Source: a virus. Taken from it: a stretch of 36,283 nt of DNA. The notes under the pieces are model-generated. The model searched no databases. It was not told the origin of the DNA and saw only the letters and a program-made list of their open reading frames with translations. This document shows, in pieces, positions 2,332 to 31,019 of this stretch. The stretch lies in the IMG/VR virus record IMGVR_UViG_3300028416_000442, positions 1 to 36,283 of that record, one strand, 5' to 3'. A program made the translations under genes and the position numbers. The stretch's first letter is position 1, and every line of letters begins with the position of its first letter.

Positions 2332-2593
2332 CTGTTAATTTCACTACACTAAATAAATCAGTATTAAACTTCTTATTAAGCCTATCTGCTAAATTAAATG
2401 CATGCCCGCTGTTTGAGAAACTTACCTTTTTATACTTAGGACCTGGATAGTTTACTAACGTATTCAATGTTCTTAGGTTAATTGGTTTTCTTTCGTAATA
2501 CACTGCGTATATTGCCTCTGCTTTTAGTATCTGTTCACTATTATAACTTTTGTCCACTTGGTCAAGTATAATCGTTGGTTTTGGTCTTGCCAT
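2291..2593 (-). CDS. Protein of unknown function, first gene after a gap
   Basis: A 100-aa basic protein that I do not recognise; it contains a Pro-rich start (MARPKPTIILD) and a central segment YNSEQILKAEAIYAVYYE likely to be helical. The ATG is preceded by a good ribosome-binding site (CAGGAGAAAC) and by a GATAAATA late-promoter-like word about 23-30 nt upstream, which suggests it heads a late transcript running through the Smr, thyX and methyltransferase genes. Its 3' end overlaps the next gene's longest reading frame. Confidence 0.6.
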   Translation of the reverse strand: MARPKPTIILDQVDKSYNSEQILKAEAIYAVYYERKPINLRTLNTLVNYPGPKYKKVSFSNSGHAFNLADRLNKKFNTDLFSVVKLTDGEPITRDTKDSN

Positions 2594-2615
2594 TAATTGT
2601 TTCTCCTGTTACATG

Positions 2616-2623
2616 TATTTATC
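2616..2623 (-). promoter_or_regulatory. Candidate late promoter (GATAAATA)
   Basis: In the 52-nt gap between two genes the minus strand reads GATAAATACATGTAACAGG. The 14-nt core ATAAATACATGTAA is identical to the one near position 40-51 of the window. The position just ahead of a strong ribosome-binding site and ATG is right for a T4-type late promoter. Confidence 0.45.
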
Positions 2624-2645
2624 TAAAATCGAATAAACACATCAG

Positions 2646-3560
2646 TTAATGGCTAATTTTCATAATTTCTTCTACTCTTTCCCAAGTCTTATTATACCAA
2701 TATATATGTCCTGCATCATTAAGATGACCGCATTTACATTTTAGTTCTGGACCAATTTCAAAATCATCTACTATGTTAATAAAGTAGTCAAATAAGTCTG
2801 AATTATTCTCAAGTAATTTTTTACAAATTTTAATATCATTTTCCATACCTAACATTAACTGCCATGCAAAACTTATATTGTGTGCCTTAACAATATTTTT
2901 AATAGAATCGATTAACGTTAATTGTTCAACAAACTGGTATGGTGTATTACTTACGTATGTATGGCTATCTCTGAATGCACTTAACAATTTATCATTTTTT
3001 ACAAATTGTCTTTTATCATTAGCATCTATAAATGATTCTTGGTGTAAGTGAGTATCCCATGATACTTGTTGTGTCCATGAAGCATCTACTTTATCTGATC
3101 CACTATAACCCCTTCTTGCACCATACCCACACAGTATTCCTCTGTTTTTGTTGTCGTGATTTAAAATCCAGTCTTGCCTAGTTTTTTCCGGTGCGTTTAC
3201 ATAAAACTTATCATGCAATACATTTATTGGAACTCTATATGTATTGTCTATTAGTCTAGGTTCCAATATAAACAATTTACAATTCTCATTTAAAAATCCA
3301 TGATAGGCAAGCTCGTTGGTTGCATTCAACATATCAATATTTCTAGAACCAGAAAGTCCAATATTAACTATTTTTAATTGTAATTTTTCTGCAAGAGCCA
3401 TGTATGCTGTTTTATGTACAACTTCAGGTCCATGTTCTTTTCCACTTGAGTTATATGATTCTAGTTCTAAATATACACCAGAGCCTTCACAGTCGCCATT
3501 TGTATGACTTGTTCCTAATACAATCATATAAGGTTCAGATGGTGGAGTTAGTACTTCCAT
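2646..3560 (-). CDS. SGNH/GDSL-like hydrolase family protein
   Basis: This 304-aa protein has the block layout of SGNH hydrolases: GTSHTNGD near residue 16 (block I, with the candidate nucleophile Ser in the G-x-S position), NIGLSGSRNID (block II, Gly then Asn region), and near the C-terminus CGHLNDAGHIYW, which gives the D-x-x-H pair of block V. SGNH enzymes remove acyl or acetyl groups from glycans and lipids. A C-K-C-G-H cluster just before block V is unusual and might bind a metal. The ATG overlaps nothing upstream but its own 5' end joins the following secreted-protein gene by TAATG. A second SGNH-like gene lies at 31367-32062. Activity is inferred from motif order only. Confidence 0.6.
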   Translation of the reverse strand: MEVLTPPSEPYMIVLGTSHTNGDCEGSGVYLELESYNSSGKEHGPEVVHKTAYMALAEKLQLKIVNIGLSGSRNIDMLNATNELAYHGFLNENCKLFILEPRLIDNTYRVPINVLHDKFYVNAPEKTRQDWILNHDNKNRGILCGYGARRGYSGSDKVDASWTQQVSWDTHLHQESFIDANDKRQFVKNDKLLSAFRDSHTYVSNTPYQFVEQLTLIDSIKNIVKAHNISFAWQLMLGMENDIKICKKLLENNSDLFDYFINIVDDFEIGPELKCKCGHLNDAGHIYWYNKTWERVEEIMKISH

Positions 3561-3949
3561 TAATTTTGATCTTCTACTAAATCTAAACGTTCACCACCTG
3601 CTAATACACATGCTATATTTAGGTCTGACTTAATAAGCAATACAGTATATTCTAGTGTTGTTTCATTTCTAGTAATAACAATTCCATCAAATGGATCAGA
3701 TGGTATATACTCTGGTCTTTTAATACCAGTTGCATACATAGTTTGTCCTGATGTTTCTAATATTTGTCGTACTAATCCTTGTGCATTACATGTTATTTGT
3801 CTATTAAGTGTTCTCCAAGGTGTCGCTATTGGTGGTGGTGCCTGCTGAATTTCTGGAGCAGGTTCTATTGGCATAATTGGATTTACTTCCTGTGCCGTAG
3901 CCGATGTTGATAGGAACAGTAATGCTCCTAGTGTATATAATAGTTTCAT
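3560..3949 (-). CDS. Small secreted or periplasmic protein, unknown function
   Basis: Starting at the ATG at 3949 the protein is 129 aa and opens with a textbook signal peptide: MKLLYTLGALLFLSTSATAQ, cleaved probably after ATA or TAQ. The mature part begins with a Pro-rich linker (EVNPIMPIEPAPEIQQAPPP) and then a compact domain with two Cys residues that could form a disulphide. A longer in-frame version beginning with GTG at 3988 is less likely, because the ATG has a strong site (GAGGAAAG) and overlaps the previous gene's stop by ATGA. It probably acts in the periplasm or host envelope during infection; no family was recognised. Confidence 0.75.
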   Translation of the reverse strand: MKLLYTLGALLFLSTSATAQEVNPIMPIEPAPEIQQAPPPIATPWRTLNRQITCNAQGLVRQILETSGQTMYATGIKRPEYIPSDPFDGIVITRNETTLEYTVLLIKSDLNIACVLAGGERLDLVEDQN

Positions 3950-5200: not shown

Positions 5201-5931
5201 TGTATATCCTTTAATATATCCCAAGTATGTTTCCAGTCTTTGACCCAAATGGATCCGTCATTTTCATTTCCTCTGCTTGCAATAGTTTTAGCAAGTGGTT
5301 CATCGTTTCCGCCCGGTTGCATCATGTCACCAAAGAAAAATACATTATAGTCATCAAAGTCATCTATAACTTGACCTTTGTCTCGACCTTCTTGTATAAT
5401 ATCTAATCCTGTTTCACCTGCTACTTGAGCCCTGACACCTTTGTGTCCGTATCTGCTATTAAATAATTCTGCAATAAACTTACGCTCTTTATGTTCTGTA
5501 TCGTATGCTACATATTCTGCTCGTTGCTCTGTTGTAGCACCTCTGCCTACTACACTAAAGTTAACTAGTCCTGGTCTATCATCTAAGTGTGCTCCTGTTC
5601 TAGTAAGAAACTTAGAACGAAATAGTTCACTTGATAAAAAGTCACGCTCTTCGTTTCCTAGTGTCCAATTATTACGCTCTACTTCTAATCCATTTTCCCA
5701 TATACTATTGCCACTGCACTGATATGAACGCATAACATTATGCATAATTTCTTCGCCTAGTTGTTCTAGTGTTTTAGAGTAGTCACTTCCTGTTACAATA
5801 CAGACATTATGATTGGCTATAAAATTTAGGAAAAACTCTTTGAAATCAGGATCTATTAATGACCTACTGTTAGTAAGGGTACCGTCTACATCAAATAAAT
5901 AAGCATCATTACGCATTAGAATAGCTCGCAT
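5197..5931 (-). CDS. HAD phosphatase, eukaryotic-type phosphomannomutase-like
   Basis: This 244-aa protein is a HAD-superfamily enzyme. Motif I is YLFDVDGTLT with the nucleophile Asp14 and the second Asp16; motif II is CIVTGSD; the last motif is FFGDMMQPGGND. That last segment and the FSVVGRGA...R...YVAYD region match the layout of the eukaryotic-type phosphomannomutases (PMM1/PMM2), which convert mannose-6-phosphate to mannose-1-phosphate, better than ordinary Cof-type phosphatases. A mannose-1-phosphate role would suit the glycan genes in the window, but simple phosphatase activity is also possible. The start may be ATG at 5931 or at 5916 (MRNDAYLFDVDG); the shorter start reduces the overlap with the nuclease gene from 23 to 8 nt. 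Confidence 0.75.
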   Translation of the reverse strand: MRAILMRNDAYLFDVDGTLTNSRSLIDPDFKEFFLNFIANHNVCIVTGSDYSKTLEQLGEEIMHNVMRSYQCSGNSIWENGLEVERNNWTLGNEERDFLSSELFRSKFLTRTGAHLDDRPGLVNFSVVGRGATTEQRAEYVAYDTEHKERKFIAELFNSRYGHKGVRAQVAGETGLDIIQEGRDKGQVIDDFDDYNVFFFGDMMQPGGNDEPLAKTIASRGNENDGSIWVKDWKHTWDILKDIQ

Positions 5932-6898
5932 TCAAGTACATAGAATGATCTGTTGCCCTGTCTGCCAAACGTTGCATATCCCATTGTCCACATAGTTTCA
6001 TAAAGTGTATGCCTACTTGTGACTTCTGTTCCTTTTGCACTTGTTGTACAATAACCTCATCTAGCTTTGCTTTAATATGATCGGGTTGTTGTGTAAGATC
6101 AATGATGTGTTTGTTGCGTTCGTAATCTTCTAATACTCTATGTTCTTCATTGTTATGATCAACCCAACGTTGTAGCATAAAGTTATTCCAATTGTAGCCT
6201 TTAGTTTCTTTGTCAGCATATGCTTCCAACATACCTACTTTGTTCTTAGTGCCTTTCTTACGAGCACCTGGACATGCACTAAACACATTATCACTAGTGT
6301 CGCCTCGTATACACTTCTCAAACAACAACCACTGTGGGTCACCTAACTCTTTAGGTGCTTTAGTTTTCTTGTCCATAACAACTTTGCCTTTGTCATCAAA
6401 GATGCCTTCGACTGTAATAAGTTGCCCTGTAATACCATTGTACTGTTGTACATTAGGAGCAAGCAACTGATAAAAGTCACTGTCACTACTTACAATACAA
6501 TGTTTGTCTGTGGGGTGATTCTGTATCCAACGAGCAATAAAGTCATCTGCTTCACACTCTCCATGTTGTAATACTGTTACATTAGTACGCTTTTCAAAGA
6601 ATGTTTTAAGTCCATCAAATGCATCCCAAAATGCACGATCTTCTTCTTGCTCTGCTTCTGTTAGTGCTGCACGAGCTACTTTACGATTGTTCTTGTAAGG
6701 CTCATATGCATCTTTACGCCAGCTACGCCCTTCTAAGCATAGTACAACATGTGTACCTTTTTGCTCACGAAACACTTTGTTAATACTATTAAACATGATA
6801 TGATAACTCATGCCAATCTTTGTGTTCATGTCACCACGCACCACATGTCTAGCACGAAAGAACATATTCGCTGCATCTACTAAAATATAACTCATCAT
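5909..6898 (-). CDS. rnh: T4 RNase H-type 5'-3' nuclease (FEN family)
   Basis: This protein matches the T4 RNase H/flap endonuclease family, which removes RNA primers from lagging-strand fragments. Visible acidic motifs are YILVDAANMFFRAR near the N-terminus, GECEADDFIARW, SSDSDFYQLL, and a later GDTSDNV that is the helix-hairpin-helix Asp pair. I set the start at the ATG at 6898 (MMSYILVDAAN, 329 aa): it has an AGGATC site 4-8 nt upstream, while the longer GTG start at 6934 would lie inside the promoter spacer. The gene has its own near-perfect sigma-70-type promoter and heads the operon that continues with the HAD gene. It would act at the phage fork together with the sliding clamp. Confidence 0.85.
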   Translation of the reverse strand: MMSYILVDAANMFFRARHVVRGDMNTKIGMSYHIMFNSINKVFREQKGTHVVLCLEGRSWRKDAYEPYKNNRKVARAALTEAEQEEDRAFWDAFDGLKTFFEKRTNVTVLQHGECEADDFIARWIQNHPTDKHCIVSSDSDFYQLLAPNVQQYNGITGQLITVEGIFDDKGKVVMDKKTKAPKELGDPQWLLFEKCIRGDTSDNVFSACPGARKKGTKNKVGMLEAYADKETKGYNWNNFMLQRWVDHNNEEHRVLEDYERNKHIIDLTQQPDHIKAKLDEVIVQQVQKEQKSQVGIHFMKLCGQWDMQRLADRATDHSMYLNASYSNA

Positions 6899-6924
6899 AA
6901 AGATCCTGTAATTATTAAGTTTAT

Positions 6925-6953
6925 ATTGTAACACACCACATGTGGAATGTCAA
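6925..6953 (-). promoter_or_regulatory. Sigma-70-type promoter with palindromic spacer
   Basis: Minus strand: TTGACA (6948-6953), a 17-bp spacer, then TACAAT (6925-6930), 27 nt before the RNase H start. The spacer holds the perfect 10-bp palindrome CCACATGTGG (6936-6945), centred between the two hexamers, a good place for a repressor site. The -35 hexamer abuts the stop codon of the preceding gene. Confidence 0.75.
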
Positions 6954-7238: not shown

Positions 7239-8333
7239 TTACCATCCTATTTTTTCCCACGGTACATCTTTGTCGCCAAAGTGTCCGTAAATACAATTTT
7301 CACTATACTTATTATACTTGAATAATCCAAATCTGTCAATGATTCCCTTAGGAGTTAAATCAATGTTTTCTTCAATATACTTTTGAATACTTCTATTGTG
7401 TCCATTTGAATCTATGTAGATACTTGTGGGTTCTTTAACGCCAATAGCATAACTAAGTTGAATACTACACCAATCAGCCATGTTATCTGCTACAACATTC
7501 TTTGCTAACCATCGTGCCATATAAGCTGCTGAACGATCTACTTTGGTAGGATCCTTGCCACTAAATGCGCCGCCACCATGGGGAGCAAAACCACCATAAG
7601 TATCAACAATAATCTTTCGGCCTGTGAGACCTGTGTCTCCATCGGGTCCACCAATAACAAAATTACCAGTAGGATTAATATGCCATACAGTTTCTTTATC
7701 AATTAAATCTCCTAATACTTCTTCTGCAGCCTCTTTTATAGGTGCCTTAATGCTATGTTGAAATCCTTGTTTGTGTTGATGTGATACAACAATTTGATCA
7801 ATACGTGTTGGCTTTCCACCTTCGTACTGAACACTTACTTGCGACTTAGCATCTGGTAGTAGAAATTCGTATCCACTTTCTCTTGCTTTGTCTAAAGACT
7901 TTAAAATTTCATGCGAGTAATGAATTGGTGCTGGTAGCATTGCATCATTATCATCACATGCATATCCAAACATGATGCCCTGGTCACCTGCGCCAAAATC
8001 ATCTGTTCCTAAACCAATATCACCTGATTGCGAATGAATCTCGTTATAGATGTTTAACTTATCCCAATGGAATCCATCCTGTTCGTATCCAATTTCTTTA
8101 ACTTTGTCACGAACGATTTGTTTTACCTCGTCCTTGCTTACATTAAAGTTCTTTACCTCACCCGCTAACGTTACATGGTTAGTGGTTACAAGTGTTTCAA
8201 CAGCTACACGAGTTGTTTCGTCGCCGTTTTTTAATCCTGCATCAACTAGTGCATCACTAATTTGATCTGACACCTTATCTGGGTGTCCTTTACTTACACT
8301 TTCGCTTGTAAAAATATAATTGCCTTGCTTCAT
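7239..8333 (-). CDS. metK: S-adenosylmethionine synthetase MetK
   Basis: MetK makes SAM from methionine and ATP. The 364-aa sequence carries the family signatures: FTSESVSKGHPDKVSDQISD (residues 8-27, ATP and metal binding), GAGDQGIMFGYA (114-125) and GGGAFSGKDPTKVDRS (253-268, phosphate loop). It is slightly shorter than the bacterial enzyme of about 384 aa but looks complete. It lies right after queE in the same direction (46-nt gap, AGGAT site). A phage SAM synthetase is uncommon; it fits a genome that also encodes QueE, four other radical-SAM enzymes and methyltransferases, all SAM consumers. The supply role is inference. In some phages SAM genes instead counter host restriction or methylation. 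Confidence 0.96.
   Translation of the reverse strand: MKQGNYIFTSESVSKGHPDKVSDQISDALVDAGLKNGDETTRVAVETLVTTNHVTLAGEVKNFNVSKDEVKQIVRDKVKEIGYEQDGFHWDKLNIYNEIHSQSGDIGLGTDDFGAGDQGIMFGYACDDNDAMLPAPIHYSHEILKSLDKARESGYEFLLPDAKSQVSVQYEGGKPTRIDQIVVSHQHKQGFQHSIKAPIKEAAEEVLGDLIDKETVWHINPTGNFVIGGPDGDTGLTGRKIIVDTYGGFAPHGGGAFSGKDPTKVDRSAAYMARWLAKNVVADNMADWCSIQLSYAIGVKEPTSIYIDSNGHNRSIQKYIEENIDLTPKGIIDRFGLFKYNKYSENCIYGHFGDKDVPWEKIGW
7311..7339 (-). promoter_or_regulatory. Sigma-70-type promoter inside the 3' end of metK
   Basis: TTGACA (7334-7339), 17 bp, TATAAT (7311-7316) on the minus strand, both hexamers exact. It lies within metK coding sequence and 73 nt before the start of the 94-aa gene. The codons there (IDRFGLFKYN) are ordinary, so chance is possible, but the same exact spacing recurs at nine other sites. 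Confidence 0.55.
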
Positions 8334-8379: not shown

Positions 8380-9279
8380 TTAGGTTCCCCATGCGTTTCC
8401 GAATAGGCTAATGTGGAGTCTTGGGGTGAATCTCCAACCCTTTTCCATACAGATGTTCGCAACTTCTTGAACATTAAGATTATACTCTTCTGACCTACCA
8501 CCCAACGGCATAAGGTACACAGGACAATCCAACCCTGCTTTACGATATTCATCAACAGCTCTACCAGCCTCGTCAATATCAGTCCTGTCAGCAACAACAA
8601 ATTTAAGATAGATATCGCTGTCATCCACAAGACTGTAACAATAAGCAACATCAGGCTTAATAGCATCGTCCCAAGATTCTCCACTAACGGAGAGCTTAGG
8701 CGAACAACTCCATGTGACTTTAATTCTGTCATTGCTGTGGAGATAGTCGAATAGCTCGTCGTGTAAATGTTGTGTAGTGTTTGTTTCAAATGTAACATTT
8801 TTTAAATCCCTCATGCGTGGATGTTCAAATAATTCTACATAAAGTCGTTGCCACGCTAACAACGGCTCACCACCAGTTAGGATAAGATGAATATCTTGTC
8901 CGTTATCGCAAGTCCACTTGCCCTCTGGTGTTAGACTTAATAAGTGTTCTACTACTTCTTCGATAGTTCTTTGCTTATTAAATTCTTTAAACTCGGGATA
9001 GATACTTGCATAAGTATCACACCCTGTATGTATAATTGGTAAGTCTGTAAATTCTTTAGTAGATTCGTGTACACCCGTATTGATTAAGTCCAATACTTCG
9101 TCATTATATCTATTACCTGCTTGGTGTTTTTCTGCTCTACTAGGTTCGCTTCTATCAAGTCCAAAGTTCATACAACGAAAGTTACAACCAAATGTACGAA
9201 GGAATACACTAGGTACTCCTACAAACTTTCCTTCACCCTGAACAGAATAGAATGCTTCACTGTATCTAAGTTTATCCAT
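8380..9279 (-). CDS. queE: 7-carboxy-7-deazaguanine synthase QueE (variant cluster motif)
   Basis: QueE is the radical-SAM enzyme that turns 6-carboxytetrahydropterin into 7-carboxy-7-deazaguanine. The N-terminus FYSVQGEGKFVGVPSVFLRT is typical of QueE, and so are the SAM-binding LTGGEPLL (134-141) and the C-terminal PRLHISLFGNAWGT. The iron-sulfur motif is odd: C32-x3-C36 is present, but the next residues are MNFG instead of x-x-C. The likely third Cys is C87 in TGCDTYASIY, a segment resembling what normally follows the third Cys, so about 48 residues seem to be inserted inside the cluster loop. Length (299 aa) is longer than the usual 210-250, consistent with an insertion. It follows queD with no gap and precedes metK. 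Confidence 0.88.
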   Translation of the reverse strand: MDKLRYSEAFYSVQGEGKFVGVPSVFLRTFGCNFRCMNFGLDRSEPSRAEKHQAGNRYNDEVLDLINTGVHESTKEFTDLPIIHTGCDTYASIYPEFKEFNKQRTIEEVVEHLLSLTPEGKWTCDNGQDIHLILTGGEPLLAWQRLYVELFEHPRMRDLKNVTFETNTTQHLHDELFDYLHSNDRIKVTWSCSPKLSVSGESWDDAIKPDVAYCYSLVDDSDIYLKFVVADRTDIDEAGRAVDEYRKAGLDCPVYLMPLGGRSEEYNLNVQEVANICMEKGWRFTPRLHISLFGNAWGT

Positions 9280-9729
9280 TTACGCCTCGTAGATTGCTGA
9301 ATTGGCGCCATGCTCTGCCACTTCAGTTTTAACACAATAACAACGATTATCTGTTGCTTCACGTATAAGTTTGTCTGCAAAGTTAAATGCGTGTTCGGCA
9401 AATTTCTCTGCACCAACTCCGTCCATTACAACAATCTCTGCTAGATCGAGTTCTTGCAATTCCATAAACTTATCTAAGTGTGGATCGTTTTTATCAATTG
9501 CTGTTTTGTGATCAAAGTTATCTTCTAACCATTTCTTCAAAGGCTTTAGGCCACCAAAGTCAACTGCCCAATTCCTTCGATCAAGCTCGTCGCATCCAAA
9601 TGTAAATGTAAATGCTAAACTATATCCGTGTAGCAAATGACAATGCGAGTGATCTGCATTTGGTTGACGGAACACTGCACTAAGTCCAATGTTGTGTCCG
9701 TAATGTTTTGTACTATAATATTTTCCCAT
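9280..9729 (-). CDS. queD: 6-carboxytetrahydropterin synthase QueD
   Basis: QueD makes 6-carboxytetrahydropterin from dihydroneopterin triphosphate, the product of FolE. The 149-aa sequence shows the catalytic Cys30 in HCHLLHGYS, the DFGGLK motif (57-62), the catalytic Asp-His pair in NFDHKT (73-74) and the C-terminal Glu139 in VAEHGANSAIY. Two of the three usual zinc His ligands differ: the first His position is Phe20 (LSAVFRQ) and the second His of HGH is Tyr36; H27 or H29 might substitute. This looks like a distinct QueD subtype rather than a decayed gene, since the rest is intact. An AGGAG site precedes the ATG, and a TTTAAATA late-like word lies 32 nt upstream. Confidence 0.88.
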   Translation of the reverse strand: MGKYYSTKHYGHNIGLSAVFRQPNADHSHCHLLHGYSLAFTFTFGCDELDRRNWAVDFGGLKPLKKWLEDNFDHKTAIDKNDPHLDKFMELQELDLAEIVVMDGVGAEKFAEHAFNFADKLIREATDNRCYCVKTEVAEHGANSAIYEA

Positions 9730-10309: not shown

Positions 10310-11077
10310 TTATTCTCCTTTAGTATTATTAAGTTTATTATTTGTTTCTTTAACTGTGTTAAGTATACTATGGTTTATGACTTTTGTCAAGGCTTTTACG
10401 TCTTTTGGGAAACAAGCACCACTATATCCTAGTGTTCCTTGGTTATTTGGTGCTTTCATCATATCTGGACCAATGCGCCTGAAATTACCTAAGACACTAG
10501 TTATAGTATCATAGTCAATATCCTCTGGTAATATAGTTTTTAGTTCATGGAAGAAAGCCACTTTAGTAGCCAGCCACGAATTGTGTACATATTTGATCAT
10601 ACTGGCTTCTTCTAATGTAGTGTATGATACTGATAATTCGTGTCCAAATGCTTCGCTAAACAACTCATACCACCATTCAGCATCTGCTTTGTTGTTAGCA
10701 TGATGTCCAAATATCCAATGTTCTTGATTGTCAAAATCTTCTTGTGCAGTTGCTTCTCGTAGAAACTCTGGATTGTATACTACATTAGATTCGTAATCAC
10801 GTAAACAATCAAATGTTACACTGCTTTTAATAAGTATCTTTGTTCTATAATCTGTTAGTTCTAATACATCTGACACTATACTATCGTCACACATTCCGTC
10901 TGCATTGCTAGGAGTAGGAACACATATAATAATTCCATCTGCGTCTAGTACTGCTTGTTGTGGGTCTTGTGTTGGGTGTAGTAACGGGTCTACTCTTATT
11001 ACTGTAAACCCAGTTTTTTCTAAAAAGTTTGCTACGGTTCCACCTACAAAACCGCAACCAAATATTGCTATCTTCAT
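10310..11077 (-). CDS. Short nucleotide-sugar dehydrogenase (UDP-glucose/GDP-mannose type)
   Basis: This 255-aa protein matches the first two domains of UDP-glucose 6-dehydrogenase: a Rossmann NAD-binding motif GCGFVG (7-12), the ICVPTP segment, VVYNPEFLREATA, and the active-site motif GYSGACFPKD with the catalytic Cys222. The C-terminal UDP-sugar-binding domain of the 400-450-aa enzymes is missing: the chain stops about 33 residues after the Cys. The reading frame is intact, so this is a short form rather than a broken gene. It could oxidise a nucleotide sugar to a uronic acid, possibly together with GalE. It ends a long operon begun at the thymidine kinase. Confidence 0.85.
   Translation of the reverse strand: MKIAIFGCGFVGGTVANFLEKTGFTVIRVDPLLHPTQDPQQAVLDADGIIICVPTPSNADGMCDDSIVSDVLELTDYRTKILIKSSVTFDCLRDYESNVVYNPEFLREATAQEDFDNQEHWIFGHHANNKADAEWWYELFSEAFGHELSVSYTTLEEASMIKYVHNSWLATKVAFFHELKTILPEDIDYDTITSVLGNFRRIGPDMMKAPNNQGTLGYSGACFPKDVKALTKVINHSILNTVKETNNKLNNTKGE
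10362..10390 (-). promoter_or_regulatory. Sigma-70-type promoter for the secreted glycine-zipper gene
   Basis: TTGACA (10385-10390), 17 bp, TATACT (10362-10367) on the minus strand, inside the 3' end of the dehydrogenase gene and 54 nt before the start of the secreted protein gene. Exact -35, near-consensus -10. Confidence 0.65.
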
Positions 11078-11089
11078 TTATTATTCCTA

Positions 11090-11458
11090 TTAATCTTTTT
11101 TACCAAATGATCCAGGTAAGTTGTTTACTTTACCAAAGTCTGAATACTTTTGTACCATGTTAGTACTTTCCCATGACTTACTTCCACATTCTTTATAACA
11201 TGTAGCCGGAGAAGCATTTGGTTTATCAAAACTATCTATAAGTTTTAACCAAGTACCACTTTTCATTACTTCTTCTTTTGTATGTTTAGTTAAATCTAAA
11301 TCATTGGCTACATCAAGGTTATTTTCTTCGCCCCATTTAACAAACAAATTCCATTCATGATATGGATTAAGAAAGCAACATGGTTTTAATCTTTTATCTG
11401 CAGATAAAAACATTGCCAATCCATATAATATACAGCGTGGACTAACTGTTTGTGTCAT
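11090..11458 (-). CDS. Stand-alone SPASM-like domain, partner of radical-SAM gene 11455-12162
   Basis: This 122-aa protein looks like only the C-terminal auxiliary-cluster domain of a radical-SAM/SPASM enzyme: C9 in SPRCILYG, PCCFLNPYHEW about 18 residues later, and a C-terminal ATCYKECG pair. The same Cys spacing is found fused to the radical-SAM domain at 32067-33161. The ATG at 11458 overlaps the upstream radical-SAM stop as ATGA and has its own strong ribosome-binding site (GGGAGGG, 9 nt upstream), so it appears to be translated as a separate subunit in coupled fashion rather than split by a sequencing error. It likely supplies the auxiliary iron-sulfur sites or substrate binding for its partner. 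Confidence 0.7.
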   Translation of the reverse strand: MTQTVSPRCILYGLAMFLSADKRLKPCCFLNPYHEWNLFVKWGEENNLDVANDLDLTKHTKEEVMKSGTWLKLIDSFDKPNASPATCYKECGSKSWESTNMVQKYSDFGKVNNLPGSFGKKD

Positions 11459-12162
11459 GTTGGTTGTCCCTCCCAATGATACCAATCTGCACCTTTACCA
11501 TTCCAATCGTATATGTGGTTATTATCTACTTTATAAGATGCTATATCTCTTTCACTTTTTACAGGATGGAATTCAAATCCATAACTATGTGCTAATTGTT
11601 CTGCTTCTTGTATTTGATGTTGGTTATATGGAAAAACTAAGTATTTCCAAATAATTCTAGGTTTATTTGGATATGGTTTGCCTGGTTCGTGTTCCCATTC
11701 TCGGCTGTTTAACATCTCGGCTAACGATTTCATTCCTAACATAATACTATCCCACTTTGAATTTATTCTGTATAAATGGTTTGTATCTTCCAACCCATCT
11801 ACACTAAATTCCCACGTCTGAGCTCTAGACCAATTTGTTGTTCTTACTAATTTGTCCCACCATGCTTTTGTTTTAAAAGATCCATTTGTATGCACTAATG
11901 TTTCTATTTGTTTTTCAGATGCATGATTGTAAATTTTTATAAAGTCTGGGTGATACAGTGGATCACCATAACAACCTACAAACATTAACTTTTTTCCAGT
12001 CTTTTCTGCTTCTTGGTTTATTAAATCAATAACAAGGTCAGTGTCTATATGTCCTACATCCCATTCTTTCTTTGATACTTTTGGATCATTTCGTGGACAA
12101 GCAGGACATCCCAAAGTGCATTTAGTTGTTAATTCTATTTCTATATGTTGTGTTTCAAGCAT
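11455..12162 (-). CDS. Radical-SAM protein lacking its SPASM domain (1)
   Basis: A 235-aa radical-SAM core. The cluster motif is C15-TLG-C19-PA-C22 (CxxxCxxC), followed by VGCYGDPLYHPDF in the position of the usual GGEP motif and DGLEDTNHLYR, shared with the two related enzymes at 12685-13284 and 32067-33161. The chain stops at the point where the fused relative runs on into its SPASM domain; here that domain is the next gene (11090-11458). Such enzymes often modify peptides or sugars by radical chemistry. The substrate is unknown; the neighbouring small proteins and the sugar dehydrogenase are possible links. Confidence 0.82.
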   Translation of the reverse strand: MLETQHIEIELTTKCTLGCPACPRNDPKVSKKEWDVGHIDTDLVIDLINQEAEKTGKKLMFVGCYGDPLYHPDFIKIYNHASEKQIETLVHTNGSFKTKAWWDKLVRTTNWSRAQTWEFSVDGLEDTNHLYRINSKWDSIMLGMKSLAEMLNSREWEHEPGKPYPNKPRIIWKYLVFPYNQHQIQEAEQLAHSYGFEFHPVKSERDIASYKVDNNHIYDWNGKGADWYHWEGQPT

Positions 12163-12421
12163 TTGTATTATTTATGCGTTTCATATATACTTCTTCAAAC
12201 CCATCTACCCATTCATCAAGTGGTGCACCGTCGCAACCTGCTCTCCATATACGCTTAAAATAATGTTCCTTTGATTCTGTTATTGTGTTATCGTTTGTAT
12301 CTAAATGTCCTTTAACCATATAAAAGTACATACATGCTTCGTAAAATTCTTGCTCACGAACTTCTCGTGTGCGTCTAAGCATAAAATCATAGTACCTTTC
12401 TTGTGGCTTATGTGTCATCAT
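12155..12421 (-). CDS. Small protein between two radical-SAM pairs
   Basis: An 88-aa protein from the ATG at 12421 (MMTHKPQERYYDFML), or 87 aa from the next ATG. It is rich in charged and aromatic residues (RREVREQEFYEACMYFYMV) with two Cys. Not recognised. It overlaps the SPASM gene upstream by 14 nt and the next radical-SAM gene by 8 nt. Its place between two split radical-SAM/SPASM pairs makes it a candidate substrate or accessory protein, with no direct evidence. A longer frame reaching 12523 would lie entirely within the SPASM gene and is unlikely. Confidence 0.6.
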   Translation of the reverse strand: MMTHKPQERYYDFMLRRTREVREQEFYEACMYFYMVKGHLDTNDNTITESKEHYFKRIWRAGCDGAPLDEWVDGFEEVYMKRINNTNA

Positions 12422-12701
12422 CAACAACCATTTTTTGTGTAGCATTAAACAATGATGTATCGTTTGGAGAAGAACACATTCTTTTACATACGTCCATTGG
12501 TTGTTGTTGCATTTTGTTTGCAAATTCCAACACTGTTTTTTCTTTTATTGTTTTTATTGGTGTCATATCCATATTCCAGTTTGGGTCGATATCAAACGTT
12601 TCCCAGCACATTTGTTCTGGCATCCAACAACAAGGTCTTAGTGTACCAAATGGGGTTACAAATAATGTATCTCCGTATTTACATTTAGGAGTTATATCCA
12701 A
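12408..12701 (-). CDS. Stand-alone SPASM-like domain with TTG start
   Basis: A 97-aa Cys-rich protein: C7 in TPKCKYGD, then LRPCCWMPEQMCW and VCKRMC near the end, the same order as the SPASM domain of the fused enzyme at 32067-33161 (VKCKVAG, MPCCWTAGRMY, CAQKCG). The start is TTG at 12701, preceded by AAGGAG at an ideal 7-nt distance; no ATG is available before the first Cys. It overlaps the radical-SAM gene upstream by 17 nt in another frame. It would form a two-subunit radical-SAM/SPASM enzyme with that gene's product. Confidence 0.7.
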   Translation of the reverse strand: MDITPKCKYGDTLFVTPFGTLRPCCWMPEQMCWETFDIDPNWNMDMTPIKTIKEKTVLEFANKMQQQPMDVCKRMCSSPNDTSLFNATQKMVVDDDT

Positions 12702-13284
12702 ATTGGTACTCCTTTAGTGTTGGTCTTAATGGATCATTTGGTCCATCAAATCTACTACTTATTCTTAATGCAAATGTAATGTTATATTCTTTTGCTAATT
12801 GTTTTGCTTCTTGAATTTGGTGTTCGTTAAAACTAAAAGGTATCCACTGCCATACAACATTTTTACCCATACTTGCACCCAACTTCATAGCATCAAATAC
12901 ATTATGCCAATCTGTGCCTACTCTGTATTTATGTGCAGTATCTTCTAATCCATCTAATCCAAAATATATTTTACCTTTTGTGTAACTATTATAAAACGAT
13001 TCCCACCATTTTAAATTCTTTCCTACACCTGCGGTTGACATATAAAAATCACAACCTTGTTCTGCACCAAACTTTACAAACTTATCTAATTTTTTATGAA
13101 ATATAGGATCGCCTAAGTTACCACAGAAGTTTAATGTTTTAGGTTTTAATACTGTTACAAGTTCTTCAAAATGTTCTGTACTCATGTCGCTTATTTTATA
13201 TCCACTAGTGTATGTTCGTGGGCATTTTGGACATTGTAACAAACATCTTCTGGTTATTTCTAAATGTAATTCTTTAATTGACAT
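12685..13284 (-). CDS. Radical-SAM protein lacking its SPASM domain (2)
   Basis: A 199-aa radical-SAM core with C14-LLQ-C18-PK-C21, then NFCGNLGDPIFHKKL at the GGEP position and DGLEDTAHKYR. It is clearly related to the fused enzyme at 32067-33161 (CGNLGDPI, DGLEETNHLYR) and to the core at 11455-12162. It ends before any auxiliary-cluster domain, which is supplied by the overlapping downstream gene. The two split pairs in tandem suggest duplication. Substrate unknown; the family shape is that of peptide- or sugar-modifying enzymes. Confidence 0.82.
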   Translation of the reverse strand: MSIKELHLEITRRCLLQCPKCPRTYTSGYKISDMSTEHFEELVTVLKPKTLNFCGNLGDPIFHKKLDKFVKFGAEQGCDFYMSTAGVGKNLKWWESFYNSYTKGKIYFGLDGLEDTAHKYRVGTDWHNVFDAMKLGASMGKNVVWQWIPFSFNEHQIQEAKQLAKEYNITFALRISSRFDGPNDPLRPTLKEYQFGYNS

Positions 13285-14205: not shown

Positions 14206-14780
14206 TACTTGCTCTCCCAATGTTCCGAGCAACGAGGCTCGTATGATTCTGCACCACCAACCTTTACTCTATCCGAATGTTGTGTTGCTCTAAGTCTTTG
14301 TGTTTTACCTGCATCCATTCCACATATTGTACAGAATGCTTTAATCTTAACTACTTCGTCTGCTAGTGCTAAACATCTTGATGTAGTTTCAAACGGTACT
14401 CCTCTACTGTCTTGATCTAAACCTGCTACCACAAAGTTTACACCATTGCGTAATCCTTCTTCAACAAACCACATAGTTTCATTCATATCAAAAAACTGTA
14501 TCTCGTCAATGAATACTGTATGGAAGTTGTATGATTTTATTGTGTAGTTGTCTTTGACTAGTTCTAAGTCAATTACTGCAACGGCAGAATGTTTAAGTTG
14601 GTTATGTGTTATAATATGATTTGCATCATATCTATCATCAATAACTGGCTTTAGTACCAAACACTTGTGTCCACCGTGTTCAATAAAGAGCAGTCGTTTA
14701 AGTAACTCACTGCTCTTACCAGCAAACATGGGGCCTGCGATGACCTCAAGTTTGCCTCGTTTCGTTTTGTATGTTTGCAT
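14205..14780 (-). CDS. tk: Thymidine kinase, type II
   Basis: Phosphorylates thymidine to dTMP with ATP. Walker A is GPMFAGKSSELL (16-27), the Mg-binding DEIQFFD segment follows, and a zinc lobe is marked by CTICGMDAGKTQR and the C-terminal GGAESYEPRCSEH, where the last pair is C-x2-H rather than the C-x2-C/H variants more often seen. At 191 aa it is full length for the bacterial/phage type. It starts at the stop of the autotransporter gene (TAATG) and is followed by the membrane zinc-ribbon gene with the same overlap. Together with ThyX it supports dTMP supply. Confidence 0.95.
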   Translation of the reverse strand: MQTYKTKRGKLEVIAGPMFAGKSSELLKRLLFIEHGGHKCLVLKPVIDDRYDANHIITHNQLKHSAVAVIDLELVKDNYTIKSYNFHTVFIDEIQFFDMNETMWFVEEGLRNGVNFVVAGLDQDSRGVPFETTSRCLALADEVVKIKAFCTICGMDAGKTQRLRATQHSDRVKVGGAESYEPRCSEHWESK

Positions 14781-17473
14781 TAAAATGCTACCTTGTAAGT
14801 TAATCCTGCTGTCACTTGATTTTCATCAGTGCCTGCGTAGTTATTACGCAATTCAATATTAGCAGTAAGTGAAGTTGTCTCTGTTAATGTATTTATATAA
14901 AACAGTCCCAAGTCTAACTCTCGCTTGTTTGCTTTCATTGAACTACTGATATCTAAGTTATCAATATCTCCATTAGCACTAACACTATTAGGAATACTAA
15001 AATGTGCATCTCCGCTTGTAATACTAACTGGTAAACTTGCTACAAATCCAAATGTAGTTTTGTCTACAGTTTGTTTAATACCTAGCGTAGCACTGTTAGA
15101 CATCATAGTGTCTGCACCTTTAAGCATCGAGTTAGTGTCAACATTAAGCCTTGTTGCACCCAATGTTGCATTACCCCACACATTAATACCATTGTCAAAG
15201 TCAATACTATCAGTATAACCAAAGTATGCAGTTTCAGAACTGTTAACTGACATTAGCTCACTGTTTGCAAAGTTGCCTAAGAAACTATCTGCTTCATTTA
15301 CAAGACCTACACTAAACTTGTTCCACTGTTGTACAATACTGGCATTACCATTTGTATCATTCAATGCAATATGTGTACCTGAGTTTGTTACAGGAATGAT
15401 TGTGCCTCCATTATATCCAATATAATAGTCTGGAGCAAATCCATATTGACCTGATAGTGTAGCACTTGCAGTACGAGTATCAATTGTTTGTACCATACTG
15501 TTAGCATCAAAGTAAAAGTCTCTGTCGTATTCATCAACTACCATCATTTGACTTAGTGCTGATATGCTAGTGTTTCCACTCATTGCAATTGTACCACTGT
15601 TATTAACATCAACTGTAGCACCATCAATTCTACCTGTAGTTGCTAACCCAATAGCACCCTGTGGTGTTGTTGCTTCGTCTAAGTCTAACATACCTTGTCC
15701 ATGTATATTCTCATCATACTTGGCAAAGTCTTTGTCTGCTGTATTCAACAACAATTTAGACAAGTTAGCGCCTGTCATGTGTGGCCACATTTGATGTACA
15801 ATTGCTACTGCTCCACTAACTACAGGAGCTGCCATTGATGTTCCACTGTTAGTTACATACTCACCATCTTTGTTAGGTGCCGCAATGTAACGACCTGGAG
15901 CCATAATATACCTGTCACTAATCTTTCTACCATTGTTACTAATGCATGTTCCGTCAGCGTCTTGTTCAAAACAAATGGTTCCTGCTTTATTACTGCTTCT
16001 ATGCAAGTCACCTTTACGCTCGTCCCAATTACCTACAATTAGTACACGATCACCTACTTCATCATCTAATGCAATAAAGCCAGGTTGTCCTGCAACATCC
16101 ATACCCTGATTACCTGCAGCTAATACTAGTACTGCTTCATGGCCTTTCATTGCGTTGACTATATTTTTGTAGTGTACTTCTGAAAGACTAAGGTTAGCAA
16201 ATCCATACTTGTCGTATGTCTCGCCATTACGCCCTCTAGTATCAGTTGACTTAAATATACCATCTTCGATTTCAACTAGACTGTTTTTGTATGTAAGGTC
16301 TGCATTATAGTTAGCACTTATATTAATTACATCAGCACCATTGTTAACTGCCCAAGCAATAGCCTCGTCGGCTACTGTAAAGTCAAACATACCAAAGTCC
16401 CATGCTGTCTTGGCAATCAATAAATCGGCATCTGGTGCAACACCCGTAGTACCTACACCATCTAAGTTTGCTGCCGCAATACCTGCCACGTGTGTTCCGT
16501 GTGAGAATCTATTCTTGTCATCTATTGTTTCAGTTCCATTTTTACATAAACCTGTGAAACATTCTGCACCCTTGATACTGCCTTCAAACTCTGAATGATC
16601 CATATCAATACCAGTATCAAGTATAGCAATTGTACTACCTTCACCTGTGTATCCTCGACTCCAGGCAACTGGTGCTCCTACACGTTCTAAATGATTACCG
16701 TAATTTGCAGACAACACATTATTAATGTAATTTTCATTAATATTAGAGTTTACATTCCACACTGCTTGTTTGTATGTTTCTGTATTTTCTAGTGTAACAT
16801 CTGTTCTTGCTAGATATTCTGCTTCAGTTAATACTTTAATAGGTTCTTTTTCATCAGGAATAATAACTGCATATTCTCTGATTAATTCACGTTCTACTTT
16901 AGTATCTGTTTCAACTGTGTTTGTAACATTTGTTGCTTTAGAATCATTAGTAACACCTTTAGTACCATCACTGTATGTTTTAATGGTTTGTACATTTTCC
17001 CAATGGATCTTTTTAATTGGCGTACTAAACACCTTAGTAACAACTGCATACTCTTTGATAGTAGTACCGTTATTTTCTTCTACAACTGAATTAGTCTCAC
17101 TGGTTACAGTAGTTGTACCTCGTTGTACTACTACGCCATTAGTGTTTTTATATTCTGTGCTGACTAGGGTTACTTTTTGATTGTTAGTATCAAGTAATGC
17201 TTGGAACTTTGTAAGCTCGTTTACTTGGAACGCATAGCGTTCTTTCATATTTTGGAACCAACCATAGTGTCCAAACATATGTCCAAATCGATCAATAAGA
17301 GATTTGTATGTTTTATTACTACGCTCGTAATTTGCTATCATTTGCGTAGAAAAACTGATTTGCAAGCCTGTGTTTAGGCCTGTTGCATAATCGTAATAAC
17401 TTTTAAAATTACCTGCATATGCACTTGTAGATACTACCAATGCTAATACAACTGATGCGAATAACTTCTTCAT
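14780..17473 (-). CDS. Subtilisin-type (S8) autotransporter serine protease
   Basis: This 897-aa protein looks like a complete secreted autotransporter. Residues 1-20 are a signal peptide (ending STSAYA). Residues about 21-240 are an unrecognised N-terminal region rich in Thr, Val and Asn. The subtilase domain carries the whole catalytic set: Asp286 in AILDTGIDMDH, His325 in SHGTHVAG, the oxyanion Asn455 in LAAGNQG and Ser546 in NSGTSMAAP. After about residue 600 the sequence changes to a beta-rich passenger and then a C-terminal barrel-like region of about 250 aa with alternating hydrophobic residues, ending in KVAF with the terminal Phe typical of outer-membrane barrels. It has its own strong promoter 30 nt upstream. 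A phage gene for a surface or released protease is unusual; it might process host or virion surface proteins. Confidence 0.88.
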   Translation of the reverse strand: MKKLFASVVLALVVSTSAYAGNFKSYYDYATGLNTGLQISFSTQMIANYERSNKTYKSLIDRFGHMFGHYGWFQNMKERYAFQVNELTKFQALLDTNNQKVTLVSTEYKNTNGVVVQRGTTTVTSETNSVVEENNGTTIKEYAVVTKVFSTPIKKIHWENVQTIKTYSDGTKGVTNDSKATNVTNTVETDTKVERELIREYAVIIPDEKEPIKVLTEAEYLARTDVTLENTETYKQAVWNVNSNINENYINNVLSANYGNHLERVGAPVAWSRGYTGEGSTIAILDTGIDMDHSEFEGSIKGAECFTGLCKNGTETIDDKNRFSHGTHVAGIAAANLDGVGTTGVAPDADLLIAKTAWDFGMFDFTVADEAIAWAVNNGADVINISANYNADLTYKNSLVEIEDGIFKSTDTRGRNGETYDKYGFANLSLSEVHYKNIVNAMKGHEAVLVLAAGNQGMDVAGQPGFIALDDEVGDRVLIVGNWDERKGDLHRSSNKAGTICFEQDADGTCISNNGRKISDRYIMAPGRYIAAPNKDGEYVTNSGTSMAAPVVSGAVAIVHQMWPHMTGANLSKLLLNTADKDFAKYDENIHGQGMLDLDEATTPQGAIGLATTGRIDGATVDVNNSGTIAMSGNTSISALSQMMVVDEYDRDFYFDANSMVQTIDTRTASATLSGQYGFAPDYYIGYNGGTIIPVTNSGTHIALNDTNGNASIVQQWNKFSVGLVNEADSFLGNFANSELMSVNSSETAYFGYTDSIDFDNGINVWGNATLGATRLNVDTNSMLKGADTMMSNSATLGIKQTVDKTTFGFVASLPVSITSGDAHFSIPNSVSANGDIDNLDISSSMKANKRELDLGLFYINTLTETTSLTANIELRNNYAGTDENQVTAGLTYKVAF

Positions 17474-18884: not shown

Positions 18885-19583
18885 TTATCTTGGAGCAAAT
18901 TCTTGCTGTAATTTAATGTTATTCATGAACTCTTCTTTAGTAGCAGGGTCCGTTGCAAATGCACCTTTAAGTACTGTAGTCTGTGTTAAACTACTGTGTG
19001 CCATAATGCCTCTGTTCTCACAACATCCGTGTGTTGCTTGAATGTAAACGCCTACATCTTTAGAACCTGTTACTTCACGAATCTCTCTGTTAATATCCAT
19101 TGCAAGTTCTTCTTGTAGAGTTCCACGCCTTGCACACCATTGTGCAATACGAGTATACTTTGATAGTCCAATAAGTTTATCTGCTGCAATTAATCCAATG
19201 TATGCAACACCTGTTACTGGCTGGTGGTGATGTGAACAAACACTTTTAAGTTCACTTCGCACTACTAACATACCATCATACTTTTCATTTGTAATGTTAT
19301 CTGGTTCGTTAGGAAATGCTGTTGCAGGTGGAGCCGTTTCGTATCTCCCTGCCATTAATTCATTGTAATACATTTTTGCTAAACGCTTTGCAGTATCCAT
19401 ACTGTTAGGATCTGTTTTTCTATCAATAACTAATGTATCTAATACTGTTTCAAAGGCAAGTGCTGCCTCATCGATTAGTTCTTCTTTATCGCCATTTTGT
19501 AATACTGCACTAATATTATCACCTGCCCAATATCTAATGCCTTCTTGTTCTAATTTGTTTCTAATTTGTTTCGACTTGCTCAT
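18885..19583 (-). CDS. folE: GTP cyclohydrolase I FolE
   Basis: FolE converts GTP to dihydroneopterin triphosphate, the first step to both folates and 7-deazaguanines. The zinc ligands are visible: C116 and H119 in SVCSHHHQP, and C187 in THGCCENRG. The KLIGLSKYTRIAQWCARR segment that forms the substrate pocket is intact. Length 232 aa fits the bacterial enzyme. It overlaps galE by 23 nt and has its own promoter inside galE, 53 nt upstream. The presence of QueD, QueE and DpdA in the same window argues that it feeds DNA base modification. Confidence 0.94.
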   Translation of the reverse strand: MSKSKQIRNKLEQEGIRYWAGDNISAVLQNGDKEELIDEAALAFETVLDTLVIDRKTDPNSMDTAKRLAKMYYNELMAGRYETAPPATAFPNEPDNITNEKYDGMLVVRSELKSVCSHHHQPVTGVAYIGLIAADKLIGLSKYTRIAQWCARRGTLQEELAMDINREIREVTGSKDVGVYIQATHGCCENRGIMAHSSLTQTTVLKGAFATDPATKEEFMNNIKLQQEFAPR

Positions 19584-23466: not shown

Positions 23467-24960
23467 TTATAATGTTTCTAAGAAGTCCTCTGCTGCTTCG
23501 GCCTGTTCTGATGTAAACTCGCCATCTGACTCTTCTTGAACTGAGTCTCCCGAATCAAATAAACTATCAAATGCACCTTGTGTTGTTTTAATAGTTTTCA
23601 TACCGCTGAAGTGTGTAAGCATTCTTTCACCTTCGTCTAGTAGTTGCATTGGAGTTTCGCTTTTAAATAACTTATTGATAAACTCTGTAACATAAATTAC
23701 ATCACGTGGTACCCATAAGTCAAATTCACTTTGCCCAGGCTTAACCTTATTCCATTCTAAGTGACTAGGCTGATATTTTGTTGTAGCAATGTCGGCTAGT
23801 GTGTTAGCTCGTTGACATGCTTCAATGTGTTGATAAACATTGTGTGCCATTAACAAGAAGTATGAGAAACTATCCCAACTTGTTTTACCTTCTTTGCCTA
23901 ACTTGTTTAACATGCCTGGACCCATATAACATAAGTCACCCATGTTCATACGCTCTCCGATAGGACTGTTAAACGGAAAAGGTATTTCACTGTGCTGAAA
24001 ACGTTTATCGTCTACTGCTTGTTCCATAACATAACTAAACTTACTATTCCTGTGTACATGCTGTGTATACGCTTGACCTTTAGCAGTAGTAATAAAAGGA
24101 CTTGCCGCATCATATGTTACCATCATGTTAGGGTTAATAGTTTCTCTGATGTTACGCTGAATTGCTGTAAAGATACAAGACCAATTCAGTTTACTTGTAC
24201 CCAAGTAGTGAATTAAATCTCTACCTGGATCAAGCATCTTCTCATCACGCATAACAATAAGTCTGCGTAGTGCAAGATGTAATTGCTTCATGTTGTAACC
24301 AGCCATAGCCCAACCTTCAAAAGGATAATGCTTAACTGCACCGTACCAATCATCTGCTTGTTGCTCGTTGTTGCCTTGTAATACATTTAAGAACTTAGTT
24401 TTGCCTTGTCTGTTACGAACAAAGTAATCGTTATTAAACATTGTGTATTCTAAACAATCAACCCAATTAGTTAATCCTGTTTTAGCATTAAGCGGTGGTG
24501 CCGCTGCTAATGTAGGAATATCAAGTACCATACTATAATCTGCTGTGTGTTCCAACCAGTTTAGGATTGTACTACGCAAGTCATCATCTGTTTTAAAGTT
24601 AGGCCAATCACATTTGATTACACCTGTAGCAATTTGGAACCCACCACTGTCGCCAAGGATAAAACTATTCTCCCTGTCACGCTTTTGGATCATTGGTTCC
24701 TGTACATCACTCTTTGCAGTATCTCGAGTAGCATGTCCGGCAGAGTAAAGACCCCACTTGTAATTGTAATAATTGTCTTTGGGCTTTAAAAAGTCAAAGC
24801 CATCTATTCCATATTCAAAGCCTTTAGGCATACGTTCAGGCTTAACAAAGTCTGGACGCAATTGTGCTTGTGCTATGAACTTAGAATAGAAACTACTGAT
24901 ACTCGGTAAGAATACACTGTAGTCTTTATTACTAGTTGTTAGATCTTTTCTGTCTGCCAT
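23467..24960 (-). CDS. dpdA: DNA 7-deazaguanine transglycosylase DpdA
   Basis: This 497-aa protein is a TGT-superfamily enzyme of the DpdA type, which exchanges guanine in DNA for a 7-deazaguanine. Motifs: ILGDSGGFQIATG (101-113, with Asp104 in the position of the TGT general acid/base), VLDIP (Asp147), LNVLQGNNEQQ (191-201), WAMAGYNMKQ (217-226) and VTYDAASPF (Asp284 as likely nucleophile). The CxCx2C zinc site of bacterial tRNA TGT is absent, as expected for a DNA-acting family. The last 70 residues are acidic and probably flexible. It follows the sliding clamp by 11 nt, which links it to replication. With FolE, QueD and QueE in the window, modification of phage DNA against host nucleases is the likely role. 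Confidence 0.88.
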   Translation of the reverse strand: MADRKDLTTSNKDYSVFLPSISSFYSKFIAQAQLRPDFVKPERMPKGFEYGIDGFDFLKPKDNYYNYKWGLYSAGHATRDTAKSDVQEPMIQKRDRENSFILGDSGGFQIATGVIKCDWPNFKTDDDLRSTILNWLEHTADYSMVLDIPTLAAAPPLNAKTGLTNWVDCLEYTMFNNDYFVRNRQGKTKFLNVLQGNNEQQADDWYGAVKHYPFEGWAMAGYNMKQLHLALRRLIVMRDEKMLDPGRDLIHYLGTSKLNWSCIFTAIQRNIRETINPNMMVTYDAASPFITTAKGQAYTQHVHRNSKFSYVMEQAVDDKRFQHSEIPFPFNSPIGERMNMGDLCYMGPGMLNKLGKEGKTSWDSFSYFLLMAHNVYQHIEACQRANTLADIATTKYQPSHLEWNKVKPGQSEFDLWVPRDVIYVTEFINKLFKSETPMQLLDEGERMLTHFSGMKTIKTTQGAFDSLFDSGDSVQEESDGEFTSEQAEAAEDFLETL

Positions 24961-29745: not shown

Positions 29746-29774
29746 ATAATAACAAAGTTTTACCTATTTGTCAA
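29746..29774 (-). promoter_or_regulatory. Sigma-70-type promoter of the ParB-like operon
   Basis: TTGACA (29769-29774), 17 bp, TATTAT (29746-29751) on the minus strand, 64 nt before the ATG. The -35 lies in the last codons of the radical-SAM gene upstream. The leader (29683-29745) contains two small overlapping inverted repeats, ACAATG/CATTGT and GAGCA/TGCTC, around 29713-29730, that could be an operator or RNA hairpin. Confidence 0.75.
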
Positions 29775-31019
29775 CCCCTTTATCGACATAAATTTAGATA
29801 TTTCATTATAATATTCTTCCCACTCTGGAAATACATCACTTAAAGTTGTGTTGTTAATTTTATCATATCTGTCCTGAATATGTCTAGCACTGGCTATATC
29901 ATCAAATGCTTTTGGTGAAGATTTTGGAACAACACTTTTAAATACAGACTGTACTTGTGGATAGTCTTTCCAATGTATAATTAGTTTATCTAAATGTTCT
30001 TGTCTAATACAATTTAAGTTAAATCCCATATCATGTATCTGATTAAATTTAACTTGGGTTACAACACCATCATATCGATCGAATACATCTCTTGCTGCAA
30101 ATGAATTTTGCCAGCCAATTGCTACTCTGAGATCAATGTGTCTTTGGCCCAATCTTTTTTTATCTCTCCATTCTAGTAATCTATCTATATTTTTCTCAAC
30201 TTGATGCCATGTGTTGTTGTGCCTCCAGTAGTTATGCTGAGGTCCTATACAATCTACACTTATTGAAAAGTTAACATTAGTAAAATCTTCAAGTAATGTT
30301 AATAAGTCATCTTCGTGTCTATGTAACAAACTACCATTGGTTACTATACCTATACAAGTATCAAACATCTTACGCTTACGTAATTCCTTGATAATAATAA
30401 ACATAGAATCTGTAAGAGTTGGTTCGCCACCTAAGAATTGAACTATTCTTGCGTCATCTATACAATCTAAGTATTCCTGCACGTCATGGATATTTTTTAC
30501 TATACCCTTCTTATTTGCTTTCTCTCCAAATTCACCTAATCCCTTAGAACCAAATATTGGTTTTTGCAATTGAAGATGTGTACTACTTAATGAAGGTCCA
30601 CACATTCTGCAACTGAAATTACATACATTACTTTCTCTGTAATCCATGTAGATCATTTTAAATTCATCTACATTAAACACATACGGATTATTCTTATCGT
30701 TGGTAAATTTTTCAATATGTTCGTCAAACTCAGTACTTAATGATCTTACATTAGTATCGTTATTATGGGAACAATTTATACATTCGGGAACTTGATTAAG
30801 ATTGTCTTTTGTCATTAATCTGTGTTTAAATTCTTCCATTGTTGGATGATTAAATCTTTCTTCCATTGACATACTTTTAGATGGTCGTATAAATCCATTT
30901 GAACGATCACTGATTGCATTGGTTTTAAATTCACAACAAGGAGCAATATCACCATTCGATATATCGTATGTTGTTATCCATGGAGCATAGCATAATGGTT
31001 TTTTATTTGTATCGCTCAT
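29760..31019 (-). CDS. Radical-SAM protein with N-terminal Cys-rich (twitch/SPASM-like) domain
   Basis: A 419-aa enzyme with reversed domain order. Residues 1-90 carry LCYAPWITTYDISNGDIAPC and later ECINC, i.e. C10, C28, C29, C80 and C83, the layout of a SPASM/twitch auxiliary-cluster domain. The radical-SAM core follows: SNVCNFSCRMCGP (C133-x3-C137-x2-C140) and FLGGEPTLT, the GGEP SAM-binding motif, then IVTNGSLL and ISVDCIG. It belongs to a different subfamily from the three GDP-type radical-SAM proteins in the window. Substrate unknown; it follows the SGNH and 116-aa genes in one operon. Confidence 0.85.
   Translation of the reverse strand: MSDTNKKPLCYAPWITTYDISNGDIAPCCEFKTNAISDRSNGFIRPSKSMSMEERFNHPTMEEFKHRLMTKDNLNQVPECINCSHNNDTNVRSLSTEFDEHIEKFTNDKNNPYVFNVDEFKMIYMDYRESNVCNFSCRMCGPSLSSTHLQLQKPIFGSKGLGEFGEKANKKGIVKNIHDVQEYLDCIDDARIVQFLGGEPTLTDSMFIIIKELRKRKMFDTCIGIVTNGSLLHRHEDDLLTLLEDFTNVNFSISVDCIGPQHNYWRHNNTWHQVEKNIDRLLEWRDKKRLGQRHIDLRVAIGWQNSFAARDVFDRYDGVVTQVKFNQIHDMGFNLNCIRQEHLDKLIIHWKDYPQVQSVFKSVVPKSSPKAFDDIASARHIQDRYDKINNTTLSDVFPEWEEYYNEISKFMSIKGLTNR

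Follow-up and report, generated by a model that had tools for sequence, protein, structure and literature searches.

In radical-SAM enzymes, SPASM and twitch domains have been described as C-terminal extensions, present in about 165,000 radical-SAM genes according to a 2021 review, and direct evidence for a catalytic role of their clusters has long been elusive (PMC9012708). An auxiliary cluster has been proposed as the electron acceptor in BtrN and seen in that role in SuiB, and substrate holding has been described in MoaA (PMC9012708). The order of elements in a twitch domain, namely a cysteine, a hairpin, a second cysteine, two helices and a cysteine pair, was given in the SkfB paper (PMC6231123). 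Here, we analyzed the 36,283-base virus record IMGVR_UViG_3300028416_000442 (hereafter the window), in which a radical-SAM core and its putative twitch domain are encoded by two separate genes, and this arrangement occurs twice. The twitch enzymes BtrN, MoaA and SkfB resemble these pairs in the barrel fold, in the single set of auxiliary-cluster cysteines and in the order of the elements, whereas in those enzymes the twitch extends the core chain at its C-terminus (PMC9012708) and here a separate gene, located before or after that of the core, encodes it. The SPASM enzymes anSME, PqqE and SuiB have in common with the small domain its CX9-15GX4C-like first half and are among the Foldseek matches of the core, but the pairs described here have no Aux II cysteines and consist of separate chains. 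The GeoRSP SPASM protein (TIGR04304), which we take from its name to be a SPASM-domain protein working with a radical-SAM partner, is represented by a 293-position model that has no match in the window. Similarly, N_Twi_rSAM proteins (NF033640) carry a twitch outside the C-terminal position, but in a single chain instead of two. In LipS1/LipS2 lipoyl synthase, two proteins perform the job of one radical-SAM enzyme; this is not a split between core and auxiliary domain, however, and we rejected it as a precedent because each LipS protein carries its own two [4Fe-4S] clusters (PMC9585515). Moreover, both LipS proteins are radical-SAM proteins, whereas the twitch proteins have no radical-SAM match in Pfam or NCBIfam. 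No description of a free-standing twitch or SPASM subunit was found in searches of open-licence full texts; the kind of enzyme is already known, and the separate twitch subunit appears to be new.

Both split pairs lie on the minus strand, and the coordinates given for them by an earlier sequence-only reading of this DNA were all correct. Core 1 (12685-13284, 199 aa) consists of the radical-SAM barrel only, with CX3CX2C at C14, C18 and C21. It overlaps by 17 nt with the gene for twitch subunit 1 (12408-12701, 97 aa), which starts at a TTG located 6-7 nt downstream of the Shine-Dalgarno sequence AAGGAG, both elements (12695-12713) being embedded in the end of core 1. Core 2 (11455-12162, 235 aa), again limited to the barrel, is followed by twitch subunit 2 (11090-11458, 122 aa), which begins at the ATG of an overlapping ATGA and is preceded by GGAGG at a distance of 10 nt; each small gene thus has a ribosome-binding site of its own, as that reading had proposed. 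The small frames are open over 97 and 122 codons, which none of 5000 base shuffles matched, and the frame offset at the junction differs within the window, being +1 in pair 1 and +2 in pair 2. Two paralogues on the same strand bring the architectures in the window to three. The gene 32067-33161 joins core and twitch in one chain as a C-terminal fusion, as had been noticed before, and 29760-31019 has an N-terminal twitch followed by the core. The latter scores 180.7 bits against NF033640 and passes the single-chain cut-off of 170, which the split pairs fail.

By their motif and their predicted partial (beta/alpha)6 barrel, the cores are members of the radical-SAM superfamily, and they are predicted to cleave SAM. 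Core 2 matches Pfam Radical_SAM above the cut-off (3e-10, 41 bits) and the NCBIfam model TIGR04317 at 5.8e-16; core 1 matches the former at 1.2e-5 (26 bits, below the cut-off of 29.5) and the latter at 2.7e-11. C14, C18 and C21 of the CX3CX2C motif are invariant across 61 core sequences. An AlphaFold2 model of core 1 (pLDDT 94.5, pTM 0.90) contains all six barrel strands; the core ends at the domain border, as the sequence-only reading had noted. Foldseek matched this model to BlsE, MoaA, SuiB, PqqE, anSME and BtrN in the PDB, at values down to 7.9e-10 and over about 150-230 alignment columns of chains of 245-500 residues, with BlsE as the best structural match.

The small domain had initially been taken for a SPASM domain in a separate, coupled gene. 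That it is a separate gene for an auxiliary-cluster domain was borne out, but the SPASM label was dropped in favor of twitch, because the cysteines for one cluster are conserved and the second set is absent. Across 56 free-standing sequences, PxC-X16-PCC...C-X3-C is kept and otherwise nothing is conserved; in the same alignment the seven-cysteine SPASM motif for two clusters is absent, the cysteines of the second cluster being missing, and the match to Pfam SPASM reaches 14.5 bits, below the cut-off of 21.5. The elements predicted in twitch 1, namely Cys7, two strands, Cys24, a short helix, a long helix and Cys72/Cys76 (alignment numbering), run in the published twitch order (PMC6231123). The two twitch genes of the window are only about 20% alike; twitch 2 was recovered (E 1.2e-9) by a profile from which its own sequence had been left out, and a profile of free-standing domains (A2) matches the C-terminal domain of fused radical-SAM proteins (E about 1e-10), so the separate protein and the fused domain are homologous. 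The model of the small twitch, of middling quality (pLDDT 74), gave no match in the PDB by Foldseek and VIA, and in a PDB profile search the matches to YydG and BtrN were not significant. The assignment of the fold therefore rests on sequence and predicted topology, by which the small domain should be a twitch, predicted to bind one auxiliary iron-sulfur cluster.

The separate genes are conserved: the split is kept in all close relatives (58-94% identity). L001, the closest relative (94% identity for core 1), has the gene order of core 1, twitch 1, small gene, core 2, twitch 2 and dehydrogenase unchanged, and its core 2 ortholog is 52-55% identical. L002-L004 (58-62%) are also split, the twitch is adjacent to the core in L001-L004, and the TTG with AAGGAG or AAGGA is retained in the window and in these four relatives, while the core stop in L002-L004 comes 18 nt later with respect to this TTG. 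In addition, the cultured Pelagibacter phage Mosig EXVC030M encodes a core (Mosig_00084) that overlaps by 8 nt with a 112-aa gene (Mosig_00085) annotated as "hypothetical protein". Comparison between the window and L001 gave dN/dS values of 0.061 and 0.099 for core 1 and twitch 1, and of 0.40 and 0.36 for core 2 and twitch 2, which shows purifying selection on both small genes. Errors of sequencing or assembly, or gene decay, might have been suspected because the reading frame changes at the domain border, which is the pattern expected from an indel error. However, the recurrence of the same split across independent metagenomes and in the cultured phage, the occurrence of the reversed gene order, and dN/dS of 0.06-0.4 on both parts rule out error and pseudogene, and we give this explanation practically no weight. 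The argument of the sequence-only reading against sequencing error has accordingly been strengthened; that reading had named fusion in all close relatives as one observation that would speak against it, and comparison of homologues found the close relatives all split. The search for split pairs in other phages that it proposed was also productive.

A core-profile scan of viral contigs yielded 300 relatives, the best 80 of which, along with a few from other searches, provided a set of 75 non-redundant cores. In 47 of these 75 cores the domain is encoded in its own neighboring gene, about 38 downstream and 9 upstream of the core (the automatic count was 37 and 10, but the "upstream" row at L042 3914 is actually followed by its own twitch gene). 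A C-terminal fusion was found in 26, six of them assigned by reading the C-terminal sequence and not by the twitch profile; in one the twitch lies 1.6 kb from the core (L012/L013), and one, L036, is a fusion in reverse order, in which a single reading frame (2578-3615) encodes first the twitch and then the radical-SAM core. The L036 fusion shares its contig with a split pair that has the twitch gene upstream (L014). L049 is without an obvious start, and at L046:3570-3860 a gap of about 290 nt takes the place of the usual overlap between core and twitch. A scan of genome contigs returned only three contigs, from metagenome-assembled genomes, two of which carry split pairs, and this does not establish a cellular origin. 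In a quick tree, a single clade was rejected both for all fused rows (AU p 2e-6) and for all upstream rows (AU p 0.004); thus, the arrangement has changed more than once.

These data also bear on programmed ribosomal frameshifting, which would join core and twitch into one protein, wholly or in part. In its favor, the +1 offset of pair 1 recurs in many downstream pairs, and TCC-TAA-A at the stop in the window has a Shine-Dalgarno-like AAGGAG just upstream; the spacing of this AAGGAG, however, suits initiation at the TTG. All three offsets (0, +1 and +2) are represented among the homologues, with many ATGA-type overlaps in both gene orders; pair 2 is +2 in the window but +1 in L001, the position of the core stop shifts in L002 and L003, and the gene order is reversed in L005 and L024-L033. 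With offsets so varied and gene order flipped, there is no constant direction or site among the homologues, and a fixed programmed frameshift is therefore excluded as a general explanation; frameshifting of any extent appears highly improbable.

A search seeded with the twitch itself, for which the mixed alignment A2 was too diverse and the narrower A7 and A8 worked, recovered 55 non-redundant copies. Of these, 36 immediately follow a core, 12 immediately precede one, 5 are fused to it and 2 are far from it. None of the 55 was an orphan lacking a core, and all 48 neighboring free-standing copies lie beside a core. In addition, core and twitch are co-inherited, their distances being correlated (rho 0.77, 0 of 2000 permutations), to which the shared ancestry of linked genes also contributes. 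It could be argued that the twitch is a separate partner, an electron carrier or substrate handler that forms no stable subunit, and that the core is able to work by itself: intermolecular electron exchange through auxiliary clusters can take place, as in PapB (PMC10470005), and one core/twitch pair is 1.6 kb apart. The homology of the free-standing twitch to the fused domain, the tight adjacency with overlaps in most pairs and the lack of orphans argue against this, and we consider it rather unlikely. Twitch subunits that are interchangeable and shared between cores, the other possibility raised at first reading, would accord with several nearest-neighbor disagreements between the core and twitch trees and with a single lineage, L111/L112, in which one core is followed by two different twitch genes. 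Elsewhere the data are mostly unfavorable, since cognate pairs are co-inherited overall, most contigs with two pairs have one twitch per core, and the two twitches of the window are about 20% alike; sharing between cores is thus very doubtful. In L111/L112 the core (1391-2140) is followed by overlapping twitch genes at 2130-2438 and 2420-2752, and this is the best candidate for swappable or paired twitches.

We propose that each pair is a translationally coupled, two-polypeptide radical-SAM-twitch enzyme, a reading from sequence to which we assign a probability of about 0.8, with binding between the subunits as a prediction. The core gene would supply a complete partial (beta/alpha)6 barrel binding the SAM-cleaving [4Fe-4S] cluster, and the overlapping small gene a free-standing twitch domain expected to carry a single auxiliary iron-sulfur cluster. 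Given the overlap and the start sites, translation is expected to be coupled, so that both chains would be made together; the twitch would then dock on the barrel, and the assembly would be the same enzyme as the single chain of the fused relatives. If it behaves as in BtrN, SuiB and MoaA, the cluster of the twitch may take up an electron from the substrate radical or serve to hold the substrate. The two-subunit enzymes suggested at first reading are thus strongly supported by genomic evidence, including the reversible gene order along with conserved splits, fusions in both orders, the lack of orphans and selection, while the physical association is a prediction from genomics. It is also conceivable, although doubtful, that in marine phages the auxiliary-cluster domain is a mobile, separately expressed and dissociable subunit, swapped in multi-twitch lineages and thereby retuning the redox properties or the substrate of the core. 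An auxiliary domain on its own polypeptide would allow add-back, swapping and separate redox measurement without mutating the core. Furthermore, the twitch partner is a gene family to be added to phage annotation, as the small proteins match no family above the curated thresholds of Pfam, NCBIfam and PHROGs.

As for the substrate, pair 2 is adjoined by a UDP-glucose/GDP-mannose dehydrogenase-like gene (10310-11077, minus strand; PF03721 8.9e-17, PF00984 9.1e-15), which holds the same place in L001 (5134-5916). The encoded protein is short (255 aa), with matches to the N-terminal and central domains, and its C-terminal domain seems to be missing, also in L001. Because of this conserved sugar-nucleotide dehydrogenase neighbor, the tailoring-type neighbors in Mosig (aminotransferase, carbamoyltransferase and methyltransferase) and the BlsE match, a sugar or nucleotide-sugar might be guessed as the substrate, albeit weakly. 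A tally of neighbors was dominated by T4-type structural and DNA genes, together with further radical-SAM genes, and therefore does not fix the substrate. The small gene between the pairs (12155-12415, minus strand, 86 aa) is 94% identical in L001, and its dN/dS of 0.075 points to purifying selection; it has no Pfam family above the cut-off and no cultured-phage match, and its product could be a substrate or accessory protein.

Several other genes in the window are of note. Judged by eye, the 897-aa product of 14780-17473 resembles a secreted protease of the subtilisin type whose C-terminal barrel is autotransporter-like, a protein type unusual in phage, and it has a homologue in L001 (2-2239). 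Again by eye, genes within 8380-9729, 18885-19583 and 23467-24960 resemble QueE, QueD, FolE and a tRNA-guanine transglycosylase/DpdA-like enzyme, which suggests 7-deazaguanine DNA modification, and 7239-8333 is MetK-like. In addition, an RNase H/flap-nuclease-like gene (5909-6934) is closest (55%) to those of Pseudomonas jumbo phages of about 288 kb, and the window may therefore be a fragment of a jumbo phage.
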